A model generated the notes under the pieces. That model saw only the letters and a program-made list of their open reading frames with translations, made no database searches and was not told the DNA's origin. A program made the translations under genes and the position numbers. From Deltaproteobacteria bacterium (GTDB lineage: Bacteria; Desulfobacterota; Dissulfuribacteria; Dissulfuribacterales; Dissulfuribacteraceae), in NCBI GenBank assembly GCA_015494155.1, contig WGBU01000055.1, positions 1-33,087 of the forward strand: a stretch of 33,087 nt of DNA, given 5' to 3'. The number at the start of each line of letters is the position of its first letter. Positions within the stretch are counted from its first letter, which is position 1. This document shows positions 9,406-23,916 of this stretch, piece after piece.

Positions 9406-9427
9406 GGTATCTCCTTAAAAGTGAGGG

Positions 9428-9465
9428 GAGGGGGCACAAAATTGGTGTAGCTCGTGTGCCCCCTC
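9428..9465 (-). terminator. Hairpin between nifK and nifE (copy 2 of the GGGGGCAC inverted repeat)
   Basis: Perfect 11-bp arms GAGGGGGCACA (9428-9438) and TGTGCCCCCTC (9455-9465) surround a 16-nt loop. Only a short TTTT follows a few bases later on the transcript, so complete termination is unlikely. More probable roles are partial attenuation or protection of the upstream nifHI1I2DK message from 3' decay. This would let structural genes outproduce nifENB. Confidence 0.6.
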
Positions 9466-9496
9466 AAGGTATTATGCTGCTGACACCACACCAAGA

Positions 9497-10870
9497 TTAC
9501 ATGACTAATTCGAAGCTCGATTCTGGCGCATCCCTGTCTAATCTGTCCAGGATTGCGTCGAGCATCTTTTCAAGGAGCCGCAAGGCCCCTCTGTAGCCTG
9601 TAGTCGGGAAATAGCTGTGGCCTATCCTGTCCAGGATCGGGAATCCAAAGCGCACGAATGGGATGTCTTCAGCCCTCGCAATGTACTTTCCGTAGGTGTT
9701 TCCTATGAGAAGGTCCACAGGCTCATTCTTGATCCACTGATGCAACATGAAAAGGTCTGAGAATGCCCTTACGTTGGCATGCTTCACCTTGCCATCGAGT
9801 ATCTTTTTTATGCGGTGTTCAAAGTATTTACCAGGGGTCCCTGTAACCACATGGATGGGCTTCATACCAAGGTCCACCAAAAACTCCGTCATACTGATCA
9901 CATGGTCTGGATCTCCAAAAAGCGCCACCTTTTTCCCATGGAAGTACTGGAGCATGTCTGTCATCACATCGACGACCCTTCCCCTTTCGTCTGTGATGGT
10001 GGCTGGAGGGGTTTGGCCACTAAACTCTATGAGCGCCTCAATGAATCTATCCGTTGAAGAAATCCCTATGGGAAGGTCTAGGCACTGATAGGGCACATCG
10101 CACATCTGTTCAAGAAGTGCACCTGCGGCTTCTGACGCAAACTTTCCAAGGGAGAGTGTCGCCCTTGAGGAGCCGGTCTTTTTAAGGGCATCCACCTTTA
10201 CCCCTCCCTTGGGATACATGGAGAAACGGGCTGTCTGGGGGGCGTCGAGGACGCCAGAAGTGTCTGGAAAGAGGATTGCCTCAAGCCCCATCTCGGTCGC
10301 AAGCCTTTTTATCTCTGCCATGTCAGAGGGCTCCACATAGCCTGGGACGATGTTTATGGCACTAGTCCGACCTCCATTCTTCTCTGAAAAGTATTTGACC
10401 ATGGCGGTGGTCATGTTGGAGAATCCTGTCACATGGGACCCCACATAGCTTGGGGTATTTGCATGGATCACATACTTTCCATCCGGGACTATGCCGTCCT
10501 CCCTGGCCTTTTTTACGAGGCTTGGAATGTCATCTCCGATGGTCTCGGAGAGGCAGGTTGTGTGAACTGCTACGATCTCAGGGTCATAGACCTGAAATAT
10601 GGTCTTTAGGGCCTGCCTCAGATTGGCCCCGCCGCCAAACACAGAGGCCCCTTCTGTAAAGGAGCTCGTGGAGGCCATGACGGGTTCCTTGTAGTGGCGT
10701 GTAAGGTGGCTCCTGTGGTATGCGCAGCAGCCCTGGCTGCCGTGACTGTGCGGGAGGCAGCCATGTATCCCTAGGGCCGCATACATAGCCCCAATGGGCT
10801 GGCACGTCTTGGCAGGATTTATCCTAAGGGCCTTTCTCTCGAATATCTCCTTGGGTGTCATGTCGAGCAT
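9497..10870 (-). CDS. nifK: NifK, nitrogenase MoFe protein beta subunit
   Basis: Beta subunit of dinitrogenase; it shares the P-cluster with NifD. The start is the ATG at 10870 (AAGGAGG upstream), giving 457 residues. The P-cluster cysteines are visible at 23 (KTCQPIGA), 48 (GSQGCCAY) and 106 (HTTCLSE). FGGGANLRQAL and the C-terminal RFGFPILDRIGHSYFPTTGYRG block are typical. It lacks the roughly 50-residue N-terminal extension of Azotobacter/Klebsiella NifK, as in clostridial and green-sulfur enzymes. A longer in-frame reading to 10954 would overlap nifD and is not supported. nifD ends 17 bp upstream. Confidence 0.96.
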   Translation of the reverse strand: MLDMTPKEIFERKALRINPAKTCQPIGAMYAALGIHGCLPHSHGSQGCCAYHRSHLTRHYKEPVMASTSSFTEGASVFGGGANLRQALKTIFQVYDPEIVAVHTTCLSETIGDDIPSLVKKAREDGIVPDGKYVIHANTPSYVGSHVTGFSNMTTAMVKYFSEKNGGRTSAINIVPGYVEPSDMAEIKRLATEMGLEAILFPDTSGVLDAPQTARFSMYPKGGVKVDALKKTGSSRATLSLGKFASEAAGALLEQMCDVPYQCLDLPIGISSTDRFIEALIEFSGQTPPATITDERGRVVDVMTDMLQYFHGKKVALFGDPDHVISMTEFLVDLGMKPIHVVTGTPGKYFEHRIKKILDGKVKHANVRAFSDLFMLHQWIKNEPVDLLIGNTYGKYIARAEDIPFVRFGFPILDRIGHSYFPTTGYRGALRLLEKMLDAILDRLDRDAPESSFELVM

Positions 10871-10887
10871 TGTCAGCTTACCTCCTT

Positions 10888-12519
10888 CTATTCCGTTATT
10901 ACCGCGCCCTTTATGAGTGGGGCCTTTTCCCACGGGGCCCTGGTAAAAGACCATGCGGGGTTGTTTATGAGCATGTCTATCTCCTTTGCAAAGTTCACAG
11001 CACCCCTGTACCCTGCAAAGGGGCCGCTATAGTCGTAGCTGTGGAGTTGTTTTGAGGGGACCCCCATCTTCTGGATCACATACTTGTCCTTTATGCCAGA
11101 GCAGACGATGTCGGGCTTTAGGGTCTCCATCAGGTATTCGAGTTCGAAGTGGCTTATGTCGTCAACGATGAGGGTCCCTGGCCCCATGTCTCGCATCATC
11201 CCCTCATAGGTATCCACAATGCCCATCTGCCTTAGCCGCTCCAGGGTCTCTGGGTCCTTTCTCGGTCTAAAGCGCTCAGGGTCTGGTTCCACTTCGAGTT
11301 CAGGGATGTTTCTAGAGTCTGCATCCACTTTGATCTTTGGGAGCACGTCTCGGCCCTCGTAGTCGTCCCTGTGGGCAAATTCATAGCCTGCAACTATGGT
11401 CTTCATGCCAAGGTCGCTAAAAAGGTCCTGGTAGTGGTGTGCCCTGGATCCACCTACGAACAAGAAAGCGGTCTTACCCTCTAGTCGCTCCCTGTAAGGG
11501 GCGATTTGCTCTTCGGCCTTCTCTTCCTCGTCTCTTATGACCTCTTCTATCCTTTTTGAAAGGGCATCGTCTTCAAAGAACTCTGCCAATTTTCTAAGCG
11601 ACTTAGAGGTTGCCTTAACACCTATGAAATTTACCTTGATCCAGGGTATCCCGAATTTGGTCTCCATCATCTCTGCCATATAGTTTATGGAACGGTGGCA
11701 CTGGACGAGGTTTACGTCTGCCATGTGTGCCCGCCGGAATTCATCGTAGGAGCCGTTTCCGCTAAAAGTCGAGGCCACCTTTATGCCGCAACGGTCTAGG
11801 ATGCGCTCTATCTCCCAGGCGTCCCCTCCAATGTTGTATTCGCCCAGGCAGTTTACAGTGAAGCCCTCGAGCTCAACGTCGTCCTGCCCAACTATGTGTT
11901 CGAAGAGACCGTTGTTTGCTATATGGTGGCCTGCAGACTGGCTCACCCCACGATAACCCTCGCAACTGAAGGCCACTATGTCTATTCCAAGCTCCTGACT
12001 CATCTCCTTGGCCACTGCGTGTATGTCGTCTCCAATGAGACCCACAGGACAGGTGGCGTGAACACTAATGGCCTTTGGATGAAAGATCTCGTAGGCCTCC
12101 TTGATAGCAGCCCTCAACTTCTTTTCTCCACCGAATATGATGTTTTCCTCCTGCATGTCAGTGGAAAAGCAGTATTCGAGAAAGTAGTGTCCATCCTCCC
12201 TTGGAACGCCCTGGTTGCGCCTTGTCATCCATGCATAAAAGGAGCACCCAATGGGGCCATGGACGATGTGGACCATATCCACGATGGGGCCAATGACCAC
12301 ACCCTTGCACCCTGCATAGCAACAGCCGCGCTGGGTTATGATGCCAGGGACCGTCCTCACATTTGCCTCGATCTCCTGTGGCACTGAAGGGTCCCTGGCA
12401 ATGATGTGCCGTCTTCTCTTTCTGGCAACCTTTGTGGGGTAGACCCGGATGATGTTTTCGACTATCTCTTCGAGGTCAAACTCTTCTGTCCTCTTGGGTT
12501 CCTCTAATAGTACGCTCAT
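10888..12519 (-). CDS. nifD: NifD, nitrogenase MoFe protein alpha subunit
   Basis: Alpha subunit of dinitrogenase, which holds FeMo-co. The key residues are all present: P-cluster cysteines at 66 (or 67), 92 and 157; cofactor ligands Cys274 (NLVQCHRSINY) and His493 (QLHSYDYSGP); Gln194 and His199 of the cofactor pocket; and Arg359 (GGSRAHHY). At 543 residues it is longer than Azotobacter NifD because of an insert around residues 395-445 (ADSRNIPELEVEPDPERF onward), the feature known from Clostridium pasteurianum-type enzymes. This goes with the short NifK. It follows nifI2 by 19 bp. The residue set argues for Mo-nitrogenase, not V/Fe-only: there is no vnfG/anfG between D and K. Confidence 0.97.
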   Translation of the reverse strand: MSVLLEEPKRTEEFDLEEIVENIIRVYPTKVARKRRRHIIARDPSVPQEIEANVRTVPGIITQRGCCYAGCKGVVIGPIVDMVHIVHGPIGCSFYAWMTRRNQGVPREDGHYFLEYCFSTDMQEENIIFGGEKKLRAAIKEAYEIFHPKAISVHATCPVGLIGDDIHAVAKEMSQELGIDIVAFSCEGYRGVSQSAGHHIANNGLFEHIVGQDDVELEGFTVNCLGEYNIGGDAWEIERILDRCGIKVASTFSGNGSYDEFRRAHMADVNLVQCHRSINYMAEMMETKFGIPWIKVNFIGVKATSKSLRKLAEFFEDDALSKRIEEVIRDEEEKAEEQIAPYRERLEGKTAFLFVGGSRAHHYQDLFSDLGMKTIVAGYEFAHRDDYEGRDVLPKIKVDADSRNIPELEVEPDPERFRPRKDPETLERLRQMGIVDTYEGMMRDMGPGTLIVDDISHFELEYLMETLKPDIVCSGIKDKYVIQKMGVPSKQLHSYDYSGPFAGYRGAVNFAKEIDMLINNPAWSFTRAPWEKAPLIKGAVITE

Positions 12520-12538
12520 ATGTATAGACCTCCCTTTT

Positions 12539-12946
12539 TCATCCTCGTGCGATTTTCATCTCGTCGATTGCGAGTTCCCCGGTCTCTTCTGTCCTCACCC
12601 TCACCACATCTGTGACGGGGAGCACAAATATCTTTCCATCACCAGGGTGATTGGTCTGGTTGGCCTTGATGATGGTCTCCACAACAGTGGCCACGGCCTC
12701 GTCTGGCACCACTAGCTTCAACATACGCTTTGGCAGAAGCCGCGGTCCCTGTGCCACCATAGAGAGGGCATCCAGGCCATCTTCTGGGTTTTCTTCAATG
12801 GCAGACACGAGGTCCTGATCAAGGGCCTTCCTTCCCCTACCCATCACCTTTGTAGCGGTGAACGCTGGAAAGCCTGCATCCACAAGGGCCTCTTTGGTCT
12901 TATTCATCTTGTTCATCCTGATGATGGCCACCACCTCTTTCATCAT
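12539..12946 (-). CDS. nifI2: NifI2, PII-like nitrogenase regulator
   Basis: GlnB/PII-family protein of 135 residues (134 from the second ATG). It forms a complex with NifI1 that binds dinitrogenase and stops it when ammonium rises; 2-oxoglutarate relieves the block. The PII fold is clear: MKEVVAIIRMNK start, ALVDAGFPAFTATKVMGRG, and the C-terminal GDGKIFVLPVTDVVRVRTEE. The T-loop region is longer than in NifI1, as usual for NifI2. The start overlaps the nifI1 stop (GATGATG, preceded by AAGGAGGCAGG). Confidence 0.94.
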   Translation of the reverse strand: MMKEVVAIIRMNKMNKTKEALVDAGFPAFTATKVMGRGRKALDQDLVSAIEENPEDGLDALSMVAQGPRLLPKRMLKLVVPDEAVATVVETIIKANQTNHPGDGKIFVLPVTDVVRVRTEETGELAIDEMKIARG

Positions 12947-13275
12947 CCTGCCTCCTTTTTGCCAGAGCTTATGGTGTAGATCTCATCCACTGGTGATACG
13001 AATATCTTGCCGTCTCCGTAGGCGCCCTTTTCTCCGGTCTTTGCGCTCTCTAAAATGGCCTTTATCACCAGGTCCTTCTCTTCTTCTGGTACCACTGTAA
13101 ATAGCATGACCTTGGGGAGTTCGTCGTAGTGGACATCGCCCACTTTGATCCCCCGCTGTTTGCCGCGTCCATAGACCTCTATCTTGGTCACTGCCGGGTA
13201 ACCTGCATCGAGAAGACTCGCCATGACTGTGTCTGATTTCTCTGGCCTTACTATGGCCCTTATCATTGTATTCAT
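12943..13275 (-). CDS. nifI1: NifI1, PII-like nitrogenase regulator
   Basis: PII-family protein (110 residues) that partners NifI2 in direct switch-off of nitrogenase. Sequence marks are MIRAIVRPEKSDTVMASLLDAG, VYGRGKQRG, the T-loop VGDVHYDELPKVML and YGDGKIFVSPVDEIYTI. Its position directly after nifH (18 bp) and before nifI2 is diagnostic for the archaeal/anaerobe arrangement. Systems of this type usually lack DraT/DraG, although the NifH arginine target is conserved here. Confidence 0.94.
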   Translation of the reverse strand: MNTMIRAIVRPEKSDTVMASLLDAGYPAVTKIEVYGRGKQRGIKVGDVHYDELPKVMLFTVVPEEEKDLVIKAILESAKTGEKGAYGDGKIFVSPVDEIYTISSGKKEAG

Positions 13276-13293
13276 CTCTCTTTTCTCCTCCTT

Positions 13294-14139
<846 letters not shown>

Positions 14140-14154
14140 TTAGGGTGATAGAGT

Positions 14155-14169
14155 GCAGGAAGGGGGCCA
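14155..14169 (-). promoter_or_regulatory. Sigma-54 (-24/-12) promoter of the nif operon
   Basis: On the minus strand TGGCCCCCTTCCTGC has GG and GC separated by exactly 10 bases, as sigma-54 requires (consensus TGGCAC-N5-TTGC). Transcription would begin near 14143, about 25 nt before the nifH ATG and just ahead of its ribosome site. The adjacent nifA gene supplies the needed enhancer-binding activator. Confidence 0.7.
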
Positions 14170-14513
14170 AATTGTGTATAATGGTTGATATTTTTTATAA
14201 TTTATTGATATTATAATGAAAAAAATGAATCCCTTGTTAGAGTTTTTTTATGAGGGGAACACTTTATCAATTACCAAAATGTATTCTTTTGCCAAAAATG
14301 TAGGCAATTTTAGTTCAGAAAGGTAATATGTTGATAATGCATATAGTTTTTAATTATGACTAAGGCTTTTCGATTCCCTTATCTTGGAGGTCGTTAAATA
14401 TTTGCAAAAATGTAATATTTATACTAAGCAGTACTACAAAATTGTATTAAAAAATATTGTCCCCATGCTGTCAGTAATTAGTTAACCTTCTGTAATTGCT
14501 AGATTAAACTCTT

Positions 14514-14528
14514 TGGAATGCTCTTTGC
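14514..14528 (+). promoter_or_regulatory. Sigma-54-like promoter of nifA
   Basis: TGGAATGCTCTTTGC matches the -24/-12 pattern with the exact 10-base spacing of GG and GC and a perfect TTGC half. The start point would be near 14540, 40 nt before the nifA start codon. If real, nifA depends on sigma-54, perhaps on itself or another activator. Confidence 0.6.
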
Positions 14529-14579
14529 ATAAAAATTGCAAAAGGTTCTTAAAGCATTATCTTTGGAGATGTCTCAAAC

Positions 14580-16163
14580 GTGATGAATGACTTCAACCTA
14601 AAAAATATAGAACTCGAGACCTTGTGGGAGATCTCTAAGCTTGTTGGTTCTGCCCTTAACCTCGATACTACCCTAGAGAGGGTGCTCAAGATACTTAACG
14701 AAAAGCTCCACATGGAGCGGGCCACACTATTGCTTTTGGATGAGAGCGGGCAGATATTGAGAATAAAGGCCTCTGTAGGGCTCTCCCCCGAGCAGGAACG
14801 CCGAGGGATATATCGAATATCAGAGGGGGTGTGTGGCAAGGTGGCGAGCACAGCCACCCCCTTTGTAGTCAAAGATGTGGAGAGCGAGCCACTCTTTTTG
14901 AACAAGACTGGCGCGCGTACCAATATCAAGAAGGGCCGGATATCCTTTATAGGAGTGCCCATATTGGTGAACAACCATGTGGTTGGTGTCCTCACAGTTG
15001 ATAGGCTCTTTGGGCCGAATATATCCTTTGAAGAGGATGTGAACTTTTTGACAGTGGTGGCCACGCTTATTGGCCAATTCCTCATGTTACACAATGCCAT
15101 AAACCTGAGACACGCCCATCTCATAGAAGAGAACCGCTCCCTAAAGGCTGAGCTCAACAGTAGATATTCCTTTTCAAATATCGTAGGAAACTCAAAGGCA
15201 CTCATGGATCTCTTTCGGCTGATTAAAAAGGTGGCCCCAAGTAATGCTACTGTCCTTATCATGGGGGAATCTGGGACAGGAAAGGAGCTCGTGGCCCGTG
15301 CCATCCATAAAAATAGCCACCGTGCAAGTGGACCATTCGTGAAGGTAAACTGTGCTGCCCTTCCAGAGACACTCCTTGAGAGTGAACTTTTTGGACACGT
15401 AAAGGGTGCATTCACTGGTGCTGTGACCCAGAGGATTGGACGCTTTGAAGCAGCCCATGGTGGAACGCTCTTTTTGGACGAGATTGGGGAGATGCCCACA
15501 TCCCTACAGTCTAAGCTCTTGAGGGCCATACAAGAACGGGAGTTTGAGCGTGTAGGGAGCACGAAGACCATCTCTGTGGATGTTAGGATCATCGCCGCCA
15601 CCAATAGGGATCTTGAAGAGGCGGTAAGAAAGGGTGAGTTCAGGCAGGATCTCTACTACAGGTTGAATATCGTCCCCATCGTAATACCACCTCTTAGAGA
15701 GAGGAAGGCAGATATTCTGCCCCTGGTGGACCACTTTCTGAGAAAGAGTAACGAGCGCCATAACAGGCGCACGAGGTTGTCCAAAGAAGTGATGGACGTC
15801 TTCATAAATTATGACTGGCCTGGCAATGTGCGTGAACTTGAGAATCTCATCGAACGGTTGGTGATCATCTCGGAAAATGGCCACATTACTCCAGATGACC
15901 TCCCACTCTACATGCTCCCAGAACTCATGCATGTAAAACATAATGGAAATGGAGGAGGGAGTGATAAATCCATCTCAACGGTAGATGCAGGCATAGAGCA
16001 TGTAAGGCTTCGTACACTACAGGAGATCGAGAGGGAGGAGATCATATCTGCACTCTCCAGAAACGGATGGATTCAGGCAAAAGCAGCTAAGGAATTGGGG
16101 CTCACCCAGAGGCAGATCGGCTACAGGATCAAAAAATACAACATCAGGCCCCCATGGGAGTAA
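14580..16163 (+). CDS. nifA: NifA-type sigma-54 activator (GAF-AAA+-HTH)
   Basis: Enhancer-binding protein of 527 residues that drives sigma-54 promoters, here presumably the nif operon. Domains: GAF about 20-165; AAA+ about 200-430 with Walker A GESGTGKE (229-236), the sigma-54 contact loop GAFTGA (276-281) and Walker B GTLFLDEIGEM; a short linker; and a Fis-type HTH at about 480-520 (AAKELGLTQRQIGYRIKKY). The cysteine-rich linker of oxygen-sensing NifA proteins is absent, so it resembles the Azotobacter/Klebsiella class, which needs another partner for redox control; no nifL is nearby. It starts at GTG 14580 or ATG 14583. The identification as NifA rests on domain order plus divergence from nifH. 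Confidence 0.88.
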   Translation: MMNDFNLKNIELETLWEISKLVGSALNLDTTLERVLKILNEKLHMERATLLLLDESGQILRIKASVGLSPEQERRGIYRISEGVCGKVASTATPFVVKDVESEPLFLNKTGARTNIKKGRISFIGVPILVNNHVVGVLTVDRLFGPNISFEEDVNFLTVVATLIGQFLMLHNAINLRHAHLIEENRSLKAELNSRYSFSNIVGNSKALMDLFRLIKKVAPSNATVLIMGESGTGKELVARAIHKNSHRASGPFVKVNCAALPETLLESELFGHVKGAFTGAVTQRIGRFEAAHGGTLFLDEIGEMPTSLQSKLLRAIQEREFERVGSTKTISVDVRIIAATNRDLEEAVRKGEFRQDLYYRLNIVPIVIPPLRERKADILPLVDHFLRKSNERHNRRTRLSKEVMDVFINYDWPGNVRELENLIERLVIISENGHITPDDLPLYMLPELMHVKHNGNGGGSDKSISTVDAGIEHVRLRTLQEIEREEIISALSRNGWIQAKAAKELGLTQRQIGYRIKKYNIRPPWE

Positions 16164-16185: not shown

Positions 16186-19002
16186 TTATGCCCTCTCTAC
16201 TCTCACTGCACTTGAGCTAAAGTCTGGTATGCCACCGATCTCATCCACATATGGCGTGTAGCCATATTTGGGGTCTAGAAGGGCGAGGTCATTGGGATTG
16301 ATTCCCACACCGAGGCGTGGGTCAGGGATGGCATAGGAATTTATACCCCTTATGTCAACCCTAGATGCACCAAGTTGGCTGTGACCATAAGATATTGAGA
16401 TTGCTACAACTCCTTCCCTGATTAACCCAGTGGCCTTGACCCTTCCCCTCTTTCCAGTGTTGCACGTCCTGCTGCGCACCACTACCTCATCCCCATCTCG
16501 AAGGCCAAGTCTTTCGGCATCTTTTTTGTTCATCAGCACGAAATTGGTTGGGTGAAGTTCCAGGGCAGTTTTATGCCAAATGGTCCTGGATTGTGTGTGT
16601 AGTGCCCTCTTGAAGCTTATGAGTCTCAAGGGGTAATCATGGCTTGTGAGGTCGAGGGGTGGGGTGTACGTAACGCTTCCAAACAGTCGCCTACCAGTAG
16701 TGGAAGATATCGTGCGCGAAAGGCGCTCATTGTACATGTAGAAATGTGTGGTGGAAGACATGAAGATCTCCCCATGGAACTGTTTATCATAGGGGGAGAA
16801 TAGACCACCTCTTGCGAGGACTCCACACACCTTTTTCCACTCTTCATCCTTCAATATCCCCTTATACCTTGACACAGGATAGTTTTTCTCCACAAACTCG
16901 ATGGCCATCTTGTCCCCTTTTGTGACGTCGGCATTGTGGGCAATGTTGGCAAAGCCCCTAAGATAAAAGTCTTCTGCCCGCTTTAGGGGGTGGAGCCTTC
17001 CAGTGGCATCTGGTATGGCGTCTTTCCCAAAACCTGGAAGGTCCAGGGTCTCTGCGAGATCTATCAGAAAGGTCTCCAGCATAATGGGCCGGCCGTCTGG
17101 TGTGCGGTGTGTGAGGGGTTCTATGGCCGGGGTCCTTATGGCAGTGAACCGTTGGCACGGGGCATGGGGTGGAAGCCACCCATAGTGGCCCTCTGCATAT
17201 GTGACGTCCGGTATGATGTAGTCGGCATAGATGTTGGATTCGTTTATGCCAATGTCTATGGAGACCAAGAGTGGGACCTTTTCAGTGTCTTTTAGTGTCT
17301 CTTCAAACCTCTTTCCACCTGGAGTGGAATAGACTGGGTTGTAGAAATAGAGAAAGAGCGCCTTTATGGGATATGGATAGGCCTGGTCTATACCAGAGAG
17401 TGCCTCAACAGAGAGCCCTCCCTTGGTGAATGGAAACCACGGTCTCTTGGAAGGGTAGGGCGATTTCCCCTGCCTGGTCATATTTCTAAACTCGGTAGTA
17501 TCTTCATAGTGGGCCTTTTCCCTGGAGATCTTGACGCCTCTAGGCCTCTTTTTGCCAGGGAATGAGACGAGATCATAGGGGTCCTTTTTGTAAGACGCTA
17601 GGTGTCCACCACTTGAACAGTAGCCACCTTGCCTCTGGAGGCTCCCAGAAAATGCATTTAAGAGCGCCACTGCATAGGCACTATAGGTGCCATTTACATA
17701 GTTGCCTGCCCCATGGTACTGGCACACAGCAGAGTATGGGGCATAGCGGCTGAACTCCTCTGCCACCTCCTTTATGATGTCTGGCTCAACACCACAGAGC
17801 TTGCCATAATCTTTTAGTGTATACTTCATCACCTCTTCTTTGAGGATGTTAAAGGATGACCTGACACGGACCCTTCTTTTACCACCTTGGGTGCTAAGGG
17901 TGGTGTCCACATCAAGGATGGCACTTTTGGCCCTATTGTACTGTATGGCATCCCCTGTCTGGTCGGATATCACCACAAAGGAGTCGTCTTTTCCTGGAAA
18001 AAGGTCATTCCGCCTGAGAAGGGCCCTATCTCGTGGGTGGCTCTCGTCCCATATGACAAGGTGGGTCGCATTTACAAAACCGCCATTACCCAGCCTCTTT
18101 GCAGCCTCAAGATTGGGGCACTTTAGAAATTCCTTATTGAAGGTGCCCTTTTCAATGAGCCACCTCATTATTCCCATGGCAAAGGCACCGTCCTGACCTG
18201 GCAATATTGAAATCCACCTGTGGGCATGGACAGAGGCCTTCTGTGCCCTGGGGTCCACAATGACAAACTTCACTCCATCCTCAGAGTACCTCTTGGCCAG
18301 GGTGGCACCATACGTATTTACCCCTGGTTGAAGTGCCTCGTATACATTGGCCCCAAAGACAATTATATATCTTGCACTCCAGGGGTCTGCCTTTAGCTCT
18401 ACCTCCTTTCCATTGGTAAAGGCAAGGTTTCCCATCCTGAAGCCAATTCCACAGATGTCTGTGTGGCCAATCCTGTTGATGGAACCAAAGGCATATTTTA
18501 CAAACCGGTCTATGAACTCCTTTCGCCCAGGCTGGAGCCTGCCCGTCATGAAACAGAGACCATTGGCCTTGGGACCTAGCTCAGGGGCCTTTGGGTCTAG
18601 GGGAGAATCGTTCAAAAGATCCTTGAGGCCTGGCACATGACGCCCCTCGCCGAGGTGGGAGAAGTGTCTTCCGCCAAAGGCGATCTCCCTTATGAGGGTC
18701 TCCCACGATATGGGCTCAAACTTTCCCTCACCACGTCTCCCTGCCCTTTTTAGGGGTGTAAGGATGCGCCTGGGATTATAGACATAGCTCTTTACGTCTC
18801 TTGCCTTTCCACACAGAGAGCCCGTTGCCTTCAAGCCCTTTTTTATGGGTGTCTCAAAGGGAATTTGTCTCCCCAACATGTTATAAGGATGGTAGGGGTT
18901 TCCTGTGACACCCTCTATCCTACCATTCCTAATATGGAATCTTATGCCACATCGGGCATTACAGCCGAGACAGACTGAATGGACCTTGTTCATATCCTGC
19001 AT
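16186..19002 (-). CDS. ttrA: Tetrathionate-reductase-like molybdopterin oxidoreductase (TtrA-like catalytic subunit)
   Basis: Complex iron-sulfur molybdoenzyme catalytic subunit (938 residues). The N-terminal [4Fe-4S] cysteines are 11, 14, 18 and 64 (CLGCNARC, GSLCGKARD). Cys183 in HTDICGIGFRMGN is the probable Mo ligand, in the same context as TtrA. The bis-MGD domains follow and the chain ends with the MopB-binding barrel (LGLRDGDEVVVRSR). The best relatives are TtrA, then polysulfide/arsenate-type enzymes, so the substrate (tetrathionate, thiosulfate or other) is inferred. The ATG at 19002 has GGGGAAGGG upstream. A reading from 19029 lacks one, and a stop lies just above it, so no Tat signal can be encoded. 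It overlaps ttrB by 44 bp. Export would be by hitchhiking on TtrB. Confidence 0.78.
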   Translation of the reverse strand: MQDMNKVHSVCLGCNARCGIRFHIRNGRIEGVTGNPYHPYNMLGRQIPFETPIKKGLKATGSLCGKARDVKSYVYNPRRILTPLKRAGRRGEGKFEPISWETLIREIAFGGRHFSHLGEGRHVPGLKDLLNDSPLDPKAPELGPKANGLCFMTGRLQPGRKEFIDRFVKYAFGSINRIGHTDICGIGFRMGNLAFTNGKEVELKADPWSARYIIVFGANVYEALQPGVNTYGATLAKRYSEDGVKFVIVDPRAQKASVHAHRWISILPGQDGAFAMGIMRWLIEKGTFNKEFLKCPNLEAAKRLGNGGFVNATHLVIWDESHPRDRALLRRNDLFPGKDDSFVVISDQTGDAIQYNRAKSAILDVDTTLSTQGGKRRVRVRSSFNILKEEVMKYTLKDYGKLCGVEPDIIKEVAEEFSRYAPYSAVCQYHGAGNYVNGTYSAYAVALLNAFSGSLQRQGGYCSSGGHLASYKKDPYDLVSFPGKKRPRGVKISREKAHYEDTTEFRNMTRQGKSPYPSKRPWFPFTKGGLSVEALSGIDQAYPYPIKALFLYFYNPVYSTPGGKRFEETLKDTEKVPLLVSIDIGINESNIYADYIIPDVTYAEGHYGWLPPHAPCQRFTAIRTPAIEPLTHRTPDGRPIMLETFLIDLAETLDLPGFGKDAIPDATGRLHPLKRAEDFYLRGFANIAHNADVTKGDKMAIEFVEKNYPVSRYKGILKDEEWKKVCGVLARGGLFSPYDKQFHGEIFMSSTTHFYMYNERLSRTISSTTGRRLFGSVTYTPPLDLTSHDYPLRLISFKRALHTQSRTIWHKTALELHPTNFVLMNKKDAERLGLRDGDEVVVRSRTCNTGKRGRVKATGLIREGVVAISISYGHSQLGASRVDIRGINSYAIPDPRLGVGINPNDLALLDPKYGYTPYVDEIGGIPDFSSSAVRVERA

Positions 19003-19660
19003 AAAAGACCCTTCCCCTGTTTGGACCATTGACGGACATTGTGTAAAGCCTTCTTTCCTCTAAGTAGTACCTGAATTCACCCTGAGGCCTGTCTAGATAC
19101 CCAAAGATCCTTGCCCTGCTGGGGCACGTCTCGACACAGGCAGGACTCTCCCCAACTCTGAGCCTCTCTATACAAAAATTGCACTTTCCAGACCTCATCC
19201 CATGGTTTGGATCGAGGTACCGCGCCCCAATGGGACACGCCTCTACGCAACTGCCCTCACCACTACACTTGGACCAGTCTGTAAGAACCAGTCCAAGGCC
19301 ATCTCTATAGATGGCATTCTCTGGACACGCCTTCATGCATGGGGCATCTGTACAGTGGTGGCAGAGTGTTGGCAAAAACACACATCTTTCCATGCCCCCC
19401 TTTCCCAGTATCTCCGCCTCTAGGATCTTTGTGTTAAATACACCGTGTGGGGTCTCTTGAAGGGTCTTACACGCAATCACACAGGCCTCGCATCCCATAC
19501 ACCTCCTAAGGTCGATGACCATGGCAGGCCCCTTCTTTGGAAACGGTATGGACTTAGCACTATTAGCCATTAAGTCACCTGGAGCAAACGCAATGCCAAC
19601 CCCCAATAGTCCTGATATCTTTAAGAAAGTACGTCTTGTCACCATAGTTTCTTTCCTCAT
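18959..19660 (-). CDS. ttrB: TtrB-like four-cluster ferredoxin subunit with Tat signal
   Basis: Electron-transfer subunit (233 residues) for the molybdoenzyme encoded just downstream. It has a twin-arginine signal (TRRTFLKISGLLGVGIAF), so the folded complex goes to the periplasm. Four [4Fe-4S] motifs follow: CMGCEACVIAC, CHHCTDAPCMKAC, CSGEGSCVEAC and CNFCIERL with CVETC. The segment MVIDLRRCMGCEACV closely resembles TtrB of enteric bacteria. The start at 19660 overlaps the transglutaminase stop (ATGA); an ATG five codons later has AGGAAAG before it. No TtrC/NrfD-type quinol subunit is in the operon. Confidence 0.82.
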   Translation of the reverse strand: MRKETMVTRRTFLKISGLLGVGIAFAPGDLMANSAKSIPFPKKGPAMVIDLRRCMGCEACVIACKTLQETPHGVFNTKILEAEILGKGGMERCVFLPTLCHHCTDAPCMKACPENAIYRDGLGLVLTDWSKCSGEGSCVEACPIGARYLDPNHGMRSGKCNFCIERLRVGESPACVETCPSRARIFGYLDRPQGEFRYYLEERRLYTMSVNGPNRGRVFYAGYEQGPFSLSRL

Positions 19661-20694
19661 GGTAGGGGCCTATATCGGATTTTATAGGAGAACTCTTTTG
19701 GTGAAAGTGGGTCGAGGGGCCTTTCTCCTACCTCTCCATATGGGTACATGAAGTAGTTTAGGCGAGGTCCGGCCTGAGGTGGGTTGAGCATGATCTCCCT
19801 TCCCCTGGAAAGCCCAACCCTAAAGGGATCAATAGAACAGAAGTAGTATGAGTAGAGTCTTTTTGCCTCTGGGTCTTTGTGGCAGAGCCTTTTGGTGAGA
19901 ATGGCCTTTAGGTAATCCGCAGGGTCAGAGGCCACCCACCCATGGCCTGGTATGTAGAACTCCGCCCAACAGTGTTGCCATGTGGTGATGTCTGCGATCC
20001 CCTTTTCAGGCCTTCCAAGCCTGAGCCCAAAGCGTTCCCTAGAAGGGATGCCAGCCGCCCTAAGGAGCGCCACATATACGCTGGATATGTCTGCGCACTT
20101 CCCAGATCTTGCTCTAAACAGCGTGTAACACACATCCCCCCTGCCACACCCCCTGGTGGCAGGGTTTCTCCTAAGATTCCTGGTCACCCACTCATAGACG
20201 GCCCTGGCCTTTTCAATGGGTGAACGTTTACCTTTGGTTATCTCTTTGGATATGGCGAGTACCCTCTCGTCACCACCTGTTTTAAGATATCTGGCAAGAA
20301 AACCCCGGTCCATGCCGCTATTGGATGGCATTTCAGGAGGACAGTCTATACGTTCCTCCCTTTTCACCTCAAACGAGAGGGTGAGCCTCCTTTCCCTGAC
20401 GCCCCTTGGCCAATATGCATATAGTATTGGATTTCCATACTGGTTGTCCGTATATACTGCCCCCTCCTTGTGCGTACCCGTGATCACTATCTTGGAAATG
20501 GTCTGATATGGATCTGAAACAGGATATGGGACCCAGAGGCGCGCCTCTTCTCTTTCGCCATGTTGGGAGAGATCGAACTCAATGGTTACTATACCGATGG
20601 CCACCCTTTTTGCGTGTACGCTTGTGGGATAGGGTGTTAGAATAAAGAAATATACAAATAGGATTAATAGTATGTTATGTGAACTTTTTTGCAT
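19657..20694 (-). CDS. Exported transglutaminase-like (cysteine protease fold) protein
   Basis: Protein of 345 residues with a signal peptide (MQKSSHNILLILFVYFFIL, cleavage near SVHA-KR) and a C-terminal transglutaminase-like domain. The Cys-His-Asp triad is visible as SGKCADISSVYVALLRAAG, TTWQHCWAEFYIPG and WVASDPAD. Such bacterial domains act as peptidases or peptide ligases; the substrate here is unknown. It is the first gene of the operon with ttrB and ttrA, joined by an ATGA overlap, which suggests a job in the same compartment (the periplasm), perhaps processing or assembly of the enzyme or cell-wall work. The ATG at 20694 gives a normal signal peptide; a TTG at 20730 would add 12 hydrophobic residues. 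Confidence 0.82.
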   Translation of the reverse strand: MQKSSHNILLILFVYFFILTPYPTSVHAKRVAIGIVTIEFDLSQHGEREEARLWVPYPVSDPYQTISKIVITGTHKEGAVYTDNQYGNPILYAYWPRGVRERRLTLSFEVKREERIDCPPEMPSNSGMDRGFLARYLKTGGDERVLAISKEITKGKRSPIEKARAVYEWVTRNLRRNPATRGCGRGDVCYTLFRARSGKCADISSVYVALLRAAGIPSRERFGLRLGRPEKGIADITTWQHCWAEFYIPGHGWVASDPADYLKAILTKRLCHKDPEAKRLYSYYFCSIDPFRVGLSRGREIMLNPPQAGPRLNYFMYPYGEVGERPLDPLSPKEFSYKIRYRPLP

Positions 20695-20849
20695 GGGCAG
20701 GACAATAAATAAAAAGGCTAATGATGTCAAATAGATATATTAAATGGATTAGTGGTTTTACATAGCTTTTATCGATTGACCAAGGATGCAGTGTTCTTGA
20801 GAAGTTGTCACAATTAGAATCTTGTTTTTTTGTATGTCTGGAACAGACC
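20695..20849. promoter_or_regulatory. Divergent promoter region of the transglutaminase-ttrBA and norQ/norD-like units
   Basis: A 155-bp AT-rich spacer separates two diverging operons and must hold both promoters. No clear -35/-10 pair, sigma-54 box or strong palindrome could be picked out by eye. Confidence 0.35.
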
Positions 20850-21644
20850 ATGCTGGAGAATTTTTTAATAGATGAAGAGCCATTTTACCTCCCCCATGGA
20901 CGGGAGGTGGAGATTGCCAAGACGTGTTACAAGGCGAGGCTTCCACTCCTCCTAAAGGGTCCTACTGGGTGTGGTAAGACACGCTTTATGGAGTATCTTG
21001 CCTGGAGCCTTGGCCGCCCGCTCATCACTGTATCGTGCCACGATGATCTAAGTGCCAACGACCTTGTGGGCCGTTATCTCATAAAGGGTGGTGAGACCAT
21101 TTGGATGGATGGTCCTCTCACTATGGCAGTTAAAGGCGGCGCCATATGCTACCTCGATGAGATCGTTGAGGCAAGAAAGGATACCACTGTGATCATTCAC
21201 CCACTGACCGATCACAGGAGGACACTTCCCATAGAAAAGAGGGGCGAGATTATAGAGGCGCCACAATCTTTCATGTTGGCCATCTCGTACAACCCTGGGT
21301 ACCAGAGCGTCTTAAAGGACCTCAAAGAGAGCACTCGCCAGCGCTTTGTGGCCATTGAATTCAAGTACCCAGCCGAGGCAGCCGAGGTAGAGATCGTGGT
21401 TAAAGAGTCTGGGTTGGACAGAGAGACTGCCTCACGCCTTGTGAGGCTGGCACACCTCACCAGAGACCTCAAGGACCAAGGACTCATTGAGGGCGCTAGC
21501 ACAAGGTTGTTGGTCCACTGTGCCAAACTCATGGGCCTTGGGGTGGACTGTATGGATGCAGTGGAAACGGCAATCCTTGCCCCTCTCACCGACGACCCAG
21601 AGACACTCCTTGGGCTTAGGGAGATGGCCAAGACAATCTTCTGA
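20850..21644 (+). CDS. NorQ/CbbQ-type MoxR AAA+ ATPase
   Basis: Cytoplasmic AAA+ ATPase of 264 residues. Walker A is GPTGCGKTRFMEYLA, Walker B is ICYLDEIVEA, and YNPGYQS with RQRF are sensor/arginine-finger segments typical of the CbbQ/NirQ/NorQ branch of MoxR. These proteins pair with a VWA partner (CbbO/NorD) to activate Rubisco or mature nitric-oxide reductase. Neither target is encoded here. ATG 20850 is preferred because it gives the usual family length; a TTG at 20805 would add 15 residues. It is followed after 7 bp by the NorD-like gene. Confidence 0.88.
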   Translation: MLENFLIDEEPFYLPHGREVEIAKTCYKARLPLLLKGPTGCGKTRFMEYLAWSLGRPLITVSCHDDLSANDLVGRYLIKGGETIWMDGPLTMAVKGGAICYLDEIVEARKDTTVIIHPLTDHRRTLPIEKRGEIIEAPQSFMLAISYNPGYQSVLKDLKESTRQRFVAIEFKYPAEAAEVEIVVKESGLDRETASRLVRLAHLTRDLKDQGLIEGASTRLLVHCAKLMGLGVDCMDAVETAILAPLTDDPETLLGLREMAKTIF

Positions 21645-21651
21645 CAGACCG

Positions 21652-23916
21652 ATGGACAAGGGAGAAAAGAGGAGAAAGGCCCTAAAGAATGCCCTTTTAG
21701 AGGTCTTTTTCGCAGAGACCGTGGGTGGCTTCCATGTGGACGATGCAGTCGAGTGGATATTGGGGTGCAGTCAAAAGATCATTCCACATATATTAAATGG
21801 GGCGAGGCTCATTGCCTTTTCCATTTCAGACCTTCTCGCCTTTCACTTCATTCAGGCCATAACAGAGGCACATGCACCCTGGACCCCTCAGGGTGTAATG
21901 GAACTTGCAAAGACTTGTATCGATGTCTATGAACGAAAGGGGCTCCAGCAGGCTATTGAACTGTTGAAGGGCCGGTGTCTTAGAGACCCCACGGAGATCT
22001 CACGTGGTATATCACTAGACGAAATAAGGCATAGATATGCCATCTTGGTAAATAGCATCTCTAGGAGGGCAGTAGAGTTTCGGGAGGGCAGAGAGCTGGT
22101 CTTCGATGGGGCCTATATCACCATTCCAGAGAGGCTTTTATCCTATTTTAGAGATCGTGAATGGGACTTAAGGCTCATTAAGATATCCCTTTTCATAAAG
22201 GCACTTGAGATGCGCCTTCACTCCTTTGTATGGCTCAATGATCTTGGGCTGGATCTACTAGAAAAAAGGGGTGGCTTTAGCTACCTTTACCCCTTTTTAG
22301 TACTCATGGGTCTCGAAGGGCATATTCATGAACGCTTTCCACGAATTTACCACGAGTTCTCCGAGTTAAAGGGCCGCTGTATGTCCAGGTTTTTGGAAGA
22401 TGGAAAGGGGGGTGGTAGCCTCAAATTGGACCCACTACTTTTAAAGGTGGTGAGTTTTTTAAAGAGTTCACCCCATCACTATAGCACATTCGCCCCTTTA
22501 AATGATAAAGACACCATACTGAAAATGGCACTCAGCCTTTCCAAGGCATGGCGAGGTGCTGAGCATGAACGCGCCTTTAGGCTACTACTACCCTTTTTAG
22601 GGCCTCTTACAAGGCGTGAGGTAGACCTTCAGCGAGAAGACCTTGAAAGGGTCTTGGAGTCACGTTTCTTAGAGGCCTATTGGGCAATTCATAAAAAGGG
22701 GCCAAAAGGGATGCGGCGACACAAGGAGGGGCCATTCTTTAGGGATGGCATCCACCAGGGTGAGCAAGTCCTTGCCATTGTCCCTCAAGGGGGAGTTAAA
22801 ATAGGGCCACAGGATAAGGAAGAGGGAGCCCCACCCAGATCATTCATAGAGCTTTCATCTAGTTCTAATATGGCAGAAAAGCTCTTACAGGAACTTGAGA
22901 CAAAGGCCCTCGAGGGGCTTGGACCAGTGCCAGACGATCTTGTCCAGAGTGCCATTGGTAGGGCCTCTAGATACTTTGATCCCAGGTTTCATGTGGACCA
23001 GCAGGCCCATCCCATGGAAGATGACAATGAAAGCGGTGAAGCTTTATCGTTTTACCTCTATGATGAATGGGACTTTAGGCGCCAGGGATATAGAAAAGAG
23101 TGGTGCAAGGTCAGAGAAATAGAGCTAAAGGGGGTTAAAGGCGATTTTTTTAAGCGTACCCTCGAGGCACACAAGGGGAGTGTTACCACCTTAAAGAGAC
23201 AATTTGAGGCCCTAAGACAGGAGTATAGGATATTTAGACGACGATATCATGGTGACGAATTGGACCTCGATGCGGTGGTAGAGGCAGAGGCAGATAGGCT
23301 TGCCTCTGGCAGGCTTACTGACCGTCTCTATATGCATTCAAAGAGAGACAAACGTGATATATCTGTCTTGTTTTTGGTTGATATGAGCGCCTCTACTGAA
23401 GGTTGGGTCTCAACTGCCATCAAGGAGTCTCTGATCATATTGACACAGGTCCTTAATGCCACAGGGGATAGATATGCCATCTACGGATTTTCAGGCATGA
23501 GGAGGACCGGATGTCAGGTCTATAAGATCAAGGGATTCAACGATCCATATAGCACGCTTGTGGAAGAGCGTATAAATGGGATCGGACCCAGGGACTACAC
23601 CCGTATGGGGGCGAGCATAAGACATGCAAATCAAATTATTAGTAAGGAACCATCTAGAACAAGGCTTCTCATCATAATAAGTGATGGCAAGCCAGAAGAC
23701 TATGACGAATACAAGGGGCCTTATGCCCTGGAGGATACTAGGCACGCAGTGATTGAGGCGAGATTAAACGGCACAAACACCTTTTGTATTACAGTTGACA
23801 AAGAGGCAAGGGACTACATCCCATTTATCTTTGGACCATTAAATTATATCCTCATAAGGGACCCCAGGTCATTGAAAAAGAGGATGCCAGAGATATACAG
23901 GCGATTGGCCATATAA
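21652..23916 (+). CDS. NorD/CbbO-type von Willebrand factor A protein
   Basis: Partner of the upstream AAA+ protein, 754 residues. The C-terminal VWA domain (about 560-750) has the MIDAS motif DMSAS, a downstream TRMGAS threonine and IISDGKPEDY. The long helical N-terminal part is typical for NorD/CbbO. In known pairs the VWA subunit docks the ATPase on its client. ATG 21652 follows the ATPase stop by 7 bp with a weak ribosome site, so translation is probably coupled. Upstream in-frame codons overlap the ATPase gene and look unrelated. The client is unknown; the divergent TtrAB-like enzyme is the nearest metalloenzyme. Confidence 0.87.
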   Translation: MDKGEKRRKALKNALLEVFFAETVGGFHVDDAVEWILGCSQKIIPHILNGARLIAFSISDLLAFHFIQAITEAHAPWTPQGVMELAKTCIDVYERKGLQQAIELLKGRCLRDPTEISRGISLDEIRHRYAILVNSISRRAVEFREGRELVFDGAYITIPERLLSYFRDREWDLRLIKISLFIKALEMRLHSFVWLNDLGLDLLEKRGGFSYLYPFLVLMGLEGHIHERFPRIYHEFSELKGRCMSRFLEDGKGGGSLKLDPLLLKVVSFLKSSPHHYSTFAPLNDKDTILKMALSLSKAWRGAEHERAFRLLLPFLGPLTRREVDLQREDLERVLESRFLEAYWAIHKKGPKGMRRHKEGPFFRDGIHQGEQVLAIVPQGGVKIGPQDKEEGAPPRSFIELSSSSNMAEKLLQELETKALEGLGPVPDDLVQSAIGRASRYFDPRFHVDQQAHPMEDDNESGEALSFYLYDEWDFRRQGYRKEWCKVREIELKGVKGDFFKRTLEAHKGSVTTLKRQFEALRQEYRIFRRRYHGDELDLDAVVEAEADRLASGRLTDRLYMHSKRDKRDISVLFLVDMSASTEGWVSTAIKESLIILTQVLNATGDRYAIYGFSGMRRTGCQVYKIKGFNDPYSTLVEERINGIGPRDYTRMGASIRHANQIISKEPSRTRLLIIISDGKPEDYDEYKGPYALEDTRHAVIEARLNGTNTFCITVDKEARDYIPFIFGPLNYILIRDPRSLKKRMPEIYRRLAI

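Follow-up and report, generated by a model that had tools for sequence, protein, structure and literature searches.

How can a molybdoenzyme of the tetrathionate reductase type (TtrA) operate where no membrane subunit is encoded beside it, and what does a secreted transglutaminase-like protein (TGase) do in the same gene unit? Both questions are raised by one locus in a stretch of deltaproteobacterial DNA of 33,087 nucleotides (contig WGBU01000055.1), which is called the window here.

The three-gene unit and its proteins

From the open reading frames we confirmed what the initial annotation of this DNA had described, namely the order and coordinates of three genes, a Tat signal on TtrB and none on TtrA. 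The features of the locus are as follows.

19657..20694, minus strand: ORF of the TGase, a secreted transglutaminase-like protein of 345 aa (ATG at 20694, stop ending at 19657)
20095..20097, minus strand: catalytic Cys C212 of the TGase (numbering from the TTG at 20730), Cys in 99/99 homologues covering the column
19972..19974, minus strand: catalytic His H253, 102/102 homologues
19924..19926, minus strand: catalytic Asp D269, 102/102 homologues
18959..19660, minus strand: TtrB-like iron-sulfur subunit with a Tat signal (NCBIfam TtrB model and alignments)
19256..19258, minus strand: codon of Glu135, which replaces the second Cys of motif III (cluster FS4) in the alignment
16186..19029, minus strand: TtrA-like Mo-bisPGD catalytic subunit without a Tat signal (molybdopterin domains and TtrA model)

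The TTG at 20730 opens an upstream extension of the TGase ORF. For TtrA, the ATG at 19002, preceded by AGGGGAAGGG, is a more likely start than position 19029. TGase and TtrB overlap by 4 nt, and TtrB and TtrA by 44-71 nt depending on the TtrA start, so that there is no room for a ttrC remnant between the genes. Overlap, as claimed initially, therefore stands, but co-translation as a requirement does not, because in relatives the TGase is first or last in the unit and the intergenic gaps range from -97 to +198 nt. The unit is flanked by nifA (TIGR01817) and a CbbQ-type AAA gene.

The TtrA model is the best of its library for the catalytic subunit, with 591.5 bits against an equivalog cut-off of 1750, and the molybdopterin domains score above their cut-off. 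The start lies 10 codons past the preceding in-frame stop. The FS0 cysteines C20/C23/C27/C73 and the Mo-ligand cysteine C193, which aligns with the ArrA cysteine, are invariant across 21 clade members and in the outgroups. For TtrB, which carries the RR (Tat) signal MVTRRTFLKISG, the TtrB model is likewise the best of its library, with 152 bits against an equivalog cut-off of 416, and 15 of the 16 canonical cluster cysteines are present.

The TGase has a Sec-type signal, MQKSSHNILLILFVYFFILTPYPTSVHA, and scores 92.1 bits on Pfam Transglut_core (PF01841; cut-off 23). Directly after H253 come C254 and W255, both invariant, and the Cys-His-Asp triad is intact in all 21 Ttr-linked copies. The solved structures nearest to its AlphaFold model (pLDDT 92) are 3isr, a putative cysteine protease of Cytophaga that matches the N-terminal beta domain too (330 columns, TM 0.56-0.68), and TgpA of Pseudomonas aeruginosa (6g49/6g4h), which shares the transglutaminase-like core. 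Identity to both is 13-19%, and in TgpA the core belongs to a membrane protein, as its periplasmic domain, whereas the window TGase is predicted to be a free secreted protein. Domain score, triad and the fold match of the model place it in the Transglut_core superfamily; sequence alone cannot tell a transamidase from a peptidase or amidase here.

Conservation of the transglutaminase link

Is the neighbourhood of these genes an accident of one genome? In the tree, TtrA proteins of the window type form a single clade with support 100. Nearest to this TGase-linked clade are the NrfD-partnered TtrA proteins of genome G002, one of which reaches 1192 bits on the TtrA model versus 591 for the window protein. 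TtrA neighbours at 39-41% identity were considered as clade members and left out, as they show the order TtrB-NrfD-TtrA and no TGase.

Two whole-genome samples were searched, one of 99 relatives and one of 395 genomes of the phylum. With TtrA as query, the TGase was directly adjacent and NrfD absent in 16/16 intact loci of both samples, and a search with the TGase gave five further named Desulfobulbales-type loci with TtrA and TGase, hence a TGase homologue adjoins TtrA in 21 of 21 intact loci. As the TGase occurs in 48 of the 395 phylum-sample genomes (E<=1e-50), the association seen at the 16 loci is far beyond chance; a further sample of the phylum, drawn with the L140 protein, added no new genomes. 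The initial annotation had named relatives whose transglutaminase is never linked as the finding that would speak against it, yet no intact relative lacks the link. It had also suggested a survey of the order TGase-TtrB-TtrA; here the link proved conserved but the order was not fixed, since three arrangements occur: TGase-TtrB-TtrA, TtrB-TtrA-TGase, and a fused TtrB-TtrA followed by the TGase.

The linked TGases are not one clade. At least nine changes between linked and unlinked are needed on the TGase tree, and one family with the TtrBA fusion has another TGase subfamily at the equivalent place, which suggests that the TGase was recruited or replaced repeatedly. Always adjacent across relatives, and often with a different TGase recruited, TGase and TtrAB very probably cooperate functionally. 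At the same time most genomes have this TGase family without TtrA, as do about 70 of 80 named loci, so its role must be a different or a broader one. The alignment contained no clade-specific TtrA insertion of useful size that might serve as a dock for the TGase. Another Mo family, of 1368 aa, lies near the TGase at loci L135 and L167; it is an FdhA-type fusion without signal peptide, separated by at least one gene, and was set aside as not significant.

Our literature search on transglutaminase-like proteins together with molybdopterin oxidoreductases and sulfur found no paper, and thus no report of the TGase link of TtrAB, whereas TtrAB without TtrC has been reported already.

Export, cluster FS4 and the membrane partner

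How TtrA, itself lacking a signal, could reach the periplasm has a very plausible answer from the sequences, namely that it hitchhikes on the Tat signal of TtrB, as had been proposed initially. Seven relatives have TtrB and TtrA fused into one chain, whose only RR stands at the N-terminus; most relatives with unfused genes have an RR on TtrA too.

The Glu135 column of TtrB holds W in NarH (1q16_B), H in EbdB (2ivf_B) and A in PcrB (4ydd_B), and C in PsrB (2vpw_B) and ArrB (6cz7_B). Among 18 full-length TtrB proteins of the clade, this FS4 cysteine is replaced in 11, by E, K, S, D, L or H, and 7 retain all 16 cysteines, while it is lost in none of the 10 NrfD-partnered homologues. Two fused TtrB-TtrA members, L194 and L201, miss the FS3/FS4 half altogether. 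A [3Fe-4S] FS4 is known from membrane-bound enzymes (NarH, ActB, QrcC). In the soluble periplasmic EbDH, FS4 is likewise a [3Fe-4S] cluster and comes last in the chain, ahead of the exit heme (PMC8840923).

An NrfD-type TtrC is absent at the window and at all 21 intact clade loci, in agreement with the initial annotation. That note had further considered an adjacent lost ttrC as a sign of simple decay, an idea that failed: neither this locus nor any relative holds a remnant or a decayed ttrC. It had also recommended a search for an unlinked nrfD-like gene. Outside this locus, the source genome has five NrfD genes. With an orphan NrfD-like gene on G000:C70, next to one for a sulfate adenylyltransferase, an unlinked membrane partner could still serve TtrB.

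Proposed functions of the unit and known systems

The explanation that we favour, at about even confidence, is a soluble periplasmic TtrA-type oxidoreductase that is uncoupled from the quinol pool and has a catalytic TGase as its obligate partner. It draws on the single TtrA clade, which at its intact loci always adjoins a TGase and has no linked NrfD, on the repeated recruitment or replacement of the TGase and its intact triad, on the retained Mo-Cys ligand and FS0, and on the degeneration or loss of the TtrB cluster that usually lies towards the membrane subunit, for which the FS4 of soluble EbDH offers a parallel. Such an enzyme would come from the same stock as the tetrathionate reductase TtrA and would have lost its NrfD-type quinol subunit. 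Folded TtrA would be carried out by the Tat signal of TtrB, and electrons would pass through the TtrB clusters to or from a soluble periplasmic carrier, e.g. a c-type cytochrome, and would not come directly from the quinol pool. The TGase may perform amide-bond chemistry in the periplasm, cross-linking or limited cleavage, on TtrAB or on what TtrAB docks to, and so mature or tether the anchorless enzyme. A sulfur oxyanion or polysulfide is the most likely substrate, with arsenate possible in one lineage. Against this explanation are the often TtrA-free TGase family, the [3Fe-4S] FS4 of membrane-bound enzymes, the 7 of 18 TtrB proteins with 16 Cys, the unlinked NrfD genes, and the three-gene unit itself, within which there is no cytochrome gene.

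Other roles of the TGase deserve weighing. It might be a thiol-based handler of sulfur or selenium, whose activated Cys and Cys254 pass periplasmic sulfane sulfur to or from TtrAB in the manner of rhodanese or SoxY, a possibility that we consider unlikely. C212 and C254 are invariant, and at six loci (L109, L115, L118, L119, L130, L141; Geobacteraceae, Desulfocapsa, Desulfobulbaceae) a stand-alone TGase has a gene for a secreted rhodanese-like protein immediately upstream. Double-cubane reductase genes adjoin stand-alone copies in eight loci (NF040772, 473 bits), a LysR regulator beside such copies bears the NCBIfam name selenium-metabolism associated, and sulfur disproportionators are among the bacteria with TtrAB without TtrC (PMC9751629). 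However, the triad would be equally conserved in an amidase or peptidase, and conservation does not extend to C195 in the linked f72 copies. We also know of no transglutaminase-fold protein that carries sulfur. A rather doubtful extension is that the TGase and a soluble sulfur molybdoenzyme function as partners, the TGase handling sulfane sulfur or otherwise acting in the catalytic cycle, and that the two together perform an initial step of sulfur-intermediate metabolism in disproportionators. Supply of substrate, in which the TGase would release, by hydrolysis of a periplasmic peptide or gamma-glutamyl-type thiol compound, a product for TtrAB to oxidise or reduce, seems quite improbable: the TGase is predicted to be a secreted, catalytically intact hydrolase-type fold beside an oxidoreductase, and in four genomes it also adjoins an unrelated single-subunit Tat molybdoenzyme, but to our knowledge TtrA relatives of known function use inorganic oxyanions, and we saw no transporter or peptide-uptake gene common to the loci.

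There is only a small chance that the enzyme is an arsenic oxyanion enzyme, similar to respiratory arsenate reductase, and the operon part of arsenic metabolism. Two genomes (G031, G017) have an ArsR-type regulator with a CVC motif 170-200 bp upstream of and divergent from the TGase, and after this regulator come ACR3, an ArsE-like thioredoxin and an efflux permease; a third (G010) has ArsR and ArsC 7 bp after TtrA on the same strand, and a tetrathionate reductase homologue has been proposed as arsenate reducer in Anaeromyxobacter (cited in PMC9751629). Yet these neighbouring ars genes were seen only in the family of those three genomes (f9), with none at the other intact loci searched, that of the window included, and the ArrA model gives 119.4 of 1600 bits on the window TtrA. 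Finally, linked genes can stay in operons for long times, and an ancestral TGase-TtrAB neighbourhood might be kept without functional need. This is very improbable: flanks differ across lineages, the TGase changes side, and linked TGases are scattered over their tree, the repeated recruitment already disfavouring inherited order.

How the disproportionation of elemental sulfur and thiosulfate begins in bacteria is an open question (PMC8780430, PMC12998232), for which exported Ttr-like molybdoenzymes are among the leading candidates. The unit is a precise, widely conserved and testable candidate, in which a Ttr-type enzyme without quinol subunit has gained an obligate partner protein of a kind that the literature searched does not connect with such enzymes, and a large family of secreted transglutaminase-like proteins gains a function-linked context. 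It may also illustrate a route for a membrane-bound respiratory enzyme to turn soluble, by loss of an exit-cluster ligand, loss of half of the B subunit and A-B fusion.

Compared with the NrfD-partnered TtrABC of the Salmonella type, the unit shares the best TtrA and TtrB matches, a Cys-ligated Mo-bisPGD and FS0 subunit, a four-cluster ferredoxin B subunit and Tat export; it differs in having no TtrC at 21/21 intact loci, an FS4 ligand lost in most, no Tat signal on TtrA here, an obligate TGase neighbour and, in one lineage, the TtrB-TtrA fusion. A two-subunit periplasmic ArrAB without membrane subunit exists in Shewanella. Of the solved structures, that of ArrAB (6cz7) aligns with TtrA over the longest single stretch, although the ArrA model score is low and ArrB keeps the FS4 cysteine absent from the window TtrB. 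The type II enzymes (ethylbenzene dehydrogenase, perchlorate and selenate reductases) lack the same cysteine and operate soluble in the periplasm, but their A subunit is of a different subfamily (TIGR03479 gives 127.5 of 984.75 bits on the window TtrA), and the EbDH-type gamma heme b subunit is absent from the window unit. PMC9751629 lists TtrAB without TtrC in Dissulfuribacter thermophilus, Caldimicrobium thiodismutans, Desulfobulbus propionicus and others, which very probably include members of the window clade, and in the part considered here has no mention of a TGase, a fusion or an FS4 change; it gives D. thermophilus two NrfD-partnered TtrA and one without, the same as we found in G002. 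The MOLY cluster molyABC, like the window unit, combines exported Mo A and B subunits as candidates for sulfur disproportionation and carries a TorD/DmsD chaperone (PMC12998232), whereas the window unit, with none adjacent, has the TGase instead.

The three-gene unit and its surroundings

The window is contig C55 of G000, a 2.38 Mb genome in 201 contigs. In it, a secreted transglutaminase-like protein (TGase), TtrB and TtrA are encoded by genes that overlap one another. Pfam and NCBIfam support these names, with TtrA and TtrB scoring far under the NCBIfam equivalog cut-offs (591 of 1750 and 152 of 416 bits).

Features of the window (the first three named by Pfam/NCBIfam)
ATG 20694 to 19657, minus strand: TGase, secreted transglutaminase-like
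19660-18959, minus strand: TtrB-like ferredoxin, with RR signal
19029-16186, minus strand: TtrA-like molybdoenzyme, no RR signal
14580-16163, plus strand: nifA, one flank of the unit, convergent to TtrA
20805-21644, plus strand: CbbQ-type AAA gene, the other flank

For TtrA, the ATG at 19002, preceded by AGGGGAAGGG, is a more likely start than 19029. The nif cluster (5391-16163) holds nifH, two PII-type genes, four nitrogenase component 1-type genes and a radical SAM protein with a C-terminal Nitro_FeMo-Co domain. Divergent from TGase lies a CbbQ/NorQ-type AAA ATPase and VWA protein pair (20805-23916), for which no client enzyme is obvious nearby in the window.

We searched TGase and TtrA separately in 99 relatives and in a sample of 395 genomes from the phylum, taking at least 50% identity as membership of the window's TtrA clade and counting only loci on intact contigs. 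The TtrA search gave intact loci in 16 genomes over the two samples (G000, G002, G004, G011, G017, G029, G031, G038, G196, G243, G272, G285, G305, G343, G395 and G413), and TGase is the direct neighbour of TtrA in all of them; the clade members of G037, G010 and G044 are interrupted by contig ends and were left out. The linkage described in the initial annotation holds in every one of these intact loci, so that none is a clade member with TGase unlinked, but its order is not fixed. TGase-TtrB-TtrA occurs in nine loci, and TtrB-TtrA-TGase in five further Desulfobulbales-type loci found with the TGase profile in named genomes (L132, L140, L151, L156 and L172, the last on a contig ending before TtrB); in seven loci TtrB and TtrA make up a single polypeptide (1063-1200 aa), with TGase following within ~30 bp.

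TtrB-TtrA fusions, each with a single Tat signal
L194: 9257-12499
L196: 8871-12473
L197: 691-4188
L198: 8942-12442
L199: 9315-12803
L200: 3914-7276
L201: 8524-11715

Remoter TtrA proteins (39-41% identity; L202-L204) stand in the order TtrB-NrfD-TtrA, and TGase is absent there. The genes flanking the unit vary by lineage. In one family it is directly flanked by genes for ArsR with a CVC motif, ArsC, ACR3, ArsE-like thioredoxin, ArsG and a permease, and also by RND efflux genes.

TGase-TtrB-TtrA units flanked by ars genes
L067: 906-10571
L068: 11703-20000
L090: 2115-11191

TtrAB without TtrC is already recorded for Dissulfuribacter thermophilus, Caldimicrobium thiodismutans, Desulfobulbus propionicus and others, and TtrBCA is described there as the most abundant protein exclusive to thiosulfate disproportionation in Desulfolithobacter (PMC9751629). 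A link of TGase to TtrAB was not found in the literature searched, whose coverage is partial.

Trees of the enzyme and of its partner

The 21 intact TGase-linked TtrA sequences, together with the interrupted one of G037, form one clade (support 100) on a long stem, to which the NrfD-partnered TtrA sequences of G002, a genome of the window's family, are nearest (support 98); with the TtrA model, one of these reaches 1192 bits. The TtrBA fusions are a single clade (support 100). The linked TGases are not one clade: at least nine changes between linked and unlinked states are required, an exact count that is soft because the tree is a quick one with long branches. The Desulfobulbales copies fall among stand-alone TGases from related taxa. 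In the four fusion genomes of family f72, a TGase of another subfamily occupies the same position, and it is remote from the other linked copies by plain score too (~105-113 vs at least 280 bits). On this tree, the TGase partner was recruited or replaced repeatedly, which argues for functional need and against inherited gene order.

The exit side of TtrAB

As initially annotated, the unit has no membrane subunit, and NrfD is found in 0 of the 16 intact loci from the TtrA search; simple decay of ttrC is not indicated, since TtrB and TtrA overlap and leave no space for it. The suggested search for an unlinked nrfD-like gene gave five NrfD genes elsewhere in G000, four of which have their own context (one in a Ttr-like cluster, DsrP, and two adjoining their own iron-sulfur genes). 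The fifth, an apparent orphan of HmcC type (45 of 550 bits) on contig C70 (L101: 8651-9904), adjoins a sulfate adenylyltransferase gene and is a possible membrane partner. G002 has, 380 bp downstream of TtrA and on the same strand, a cytochrome bd subunit I-like gene with a CxxCH motif and then a second membrane protein gene (L066: 2082-4642); their products are a possible electron partner.

Every clade member keeps the TtrA FS0 cysteines C20, C23, C27 and C73 and the Mo-ligand cysteine C193, which aligns with that of ArrA. All 18 full-length TtrB members have 15 of the 16 cluster cysteines; the remaining one, the second Cys of motif III, is substituted in 11 (E, K, S, E, S, D, L, L, D, D, H) and lost in 0/10 NrfD-partnered homologues. 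In NarH and DmsB, FS3 and FS4 are held by motifs II and III. By alignment, the substituted motif III position is occupied by Trp (NarH), His (EbdB) or Ala (PcrB), whereas PsrB and ArrB have Cys. In EbDH, FS4 is a [3Fe-4S] cluster, the final one ahead of the exit heme (PMC8840923), and in NrfD complexes the terminal cluster adjoins the quinone site (PMC8076601). The L194 and L201 fusions lack motifs II and III, so that two of four ferredoxin motifs are left; automatic alignment puts the last motif of L201 under motif II, but CDLC...CVQVCPTGAL is recognizable as motif IV. Variable substitution and deletion of the membrane-facing half would be expected of an enzyme undocked from NrfD. Seven clade members retain all 16 cysteines, so the motif III change is drift or tuning and no fixed requirement.

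In the window, the RR signal is in TtrB alone, as first described. Each of the seven fusions has one RR; unfused members mostly have two, the window and G029 having just one, on TtrB. This distribution fits export of TtrA on the TtrB signal.

The role of the TGase

The predicted TGase model (pLDDT 92) shows a transglutaminase core preceded by an N-terminal beta domain, and its closest structures are 3isr, a putative cysteine protease, and TgpA. C212, H253 and D269 (numbered from TTG 20730) are invariant in all homologues covering the column, as is C254. With a conserved TtrA-TtrB-TGase unit, no linked quinol subunit, an altered exit cluster and an intact TGase triad, all read from sequence, we propose that folded TtrAB would be exported through Tat on the TtrB signal and would trade electrons with a soluble periplasmic carrier, and that TGase may act on TtrAB or on its docking partner, at an amide bond, thereby maturing or tethering TtrAB.

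That TGase is instead a thiol-based sulfur handler seems unlikely, and that it is a hydrolase releasing the substrate is more doubtful still. An arsenic function of the unit, suggested because ars genes adjoin it in G031, G017 and G010 only, is the least probable of these readings.

Most TGase homologues occur without TtrA, and sulfur or selenium redox chemistry is the recurring theme among their neighbours. A divergent LysR regulator (NF040786, associated with selenium metabolism) adjoins TGase in ~22/80 loci, a secreted rhodanese-like gene is directly upstream in six (L109, L115, L118, L119, L130, L141), and double-cubane reductase genes lie no more than a few genes away in eight (L119, L126, L135, L138, L144, L146, L152, L172), the order in L172 being TtrA-TGase-double-cubane protein-activator. 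Within the window's order, four genomes pair TGase with a divergently oriented single-subunit Tat molybdoenzyme from another subfamily.

TGase with divergent single-subunit Tat molybdoenzyme
L077: 9142-13561
L078: 2807-7374
L079: 7822-12384
L080: 1089-5236

This molybdoenzyme best matches FdhA, PhsA and NasC, all below cut-off, and a selenium-associated LysR gene adjoins the pair.
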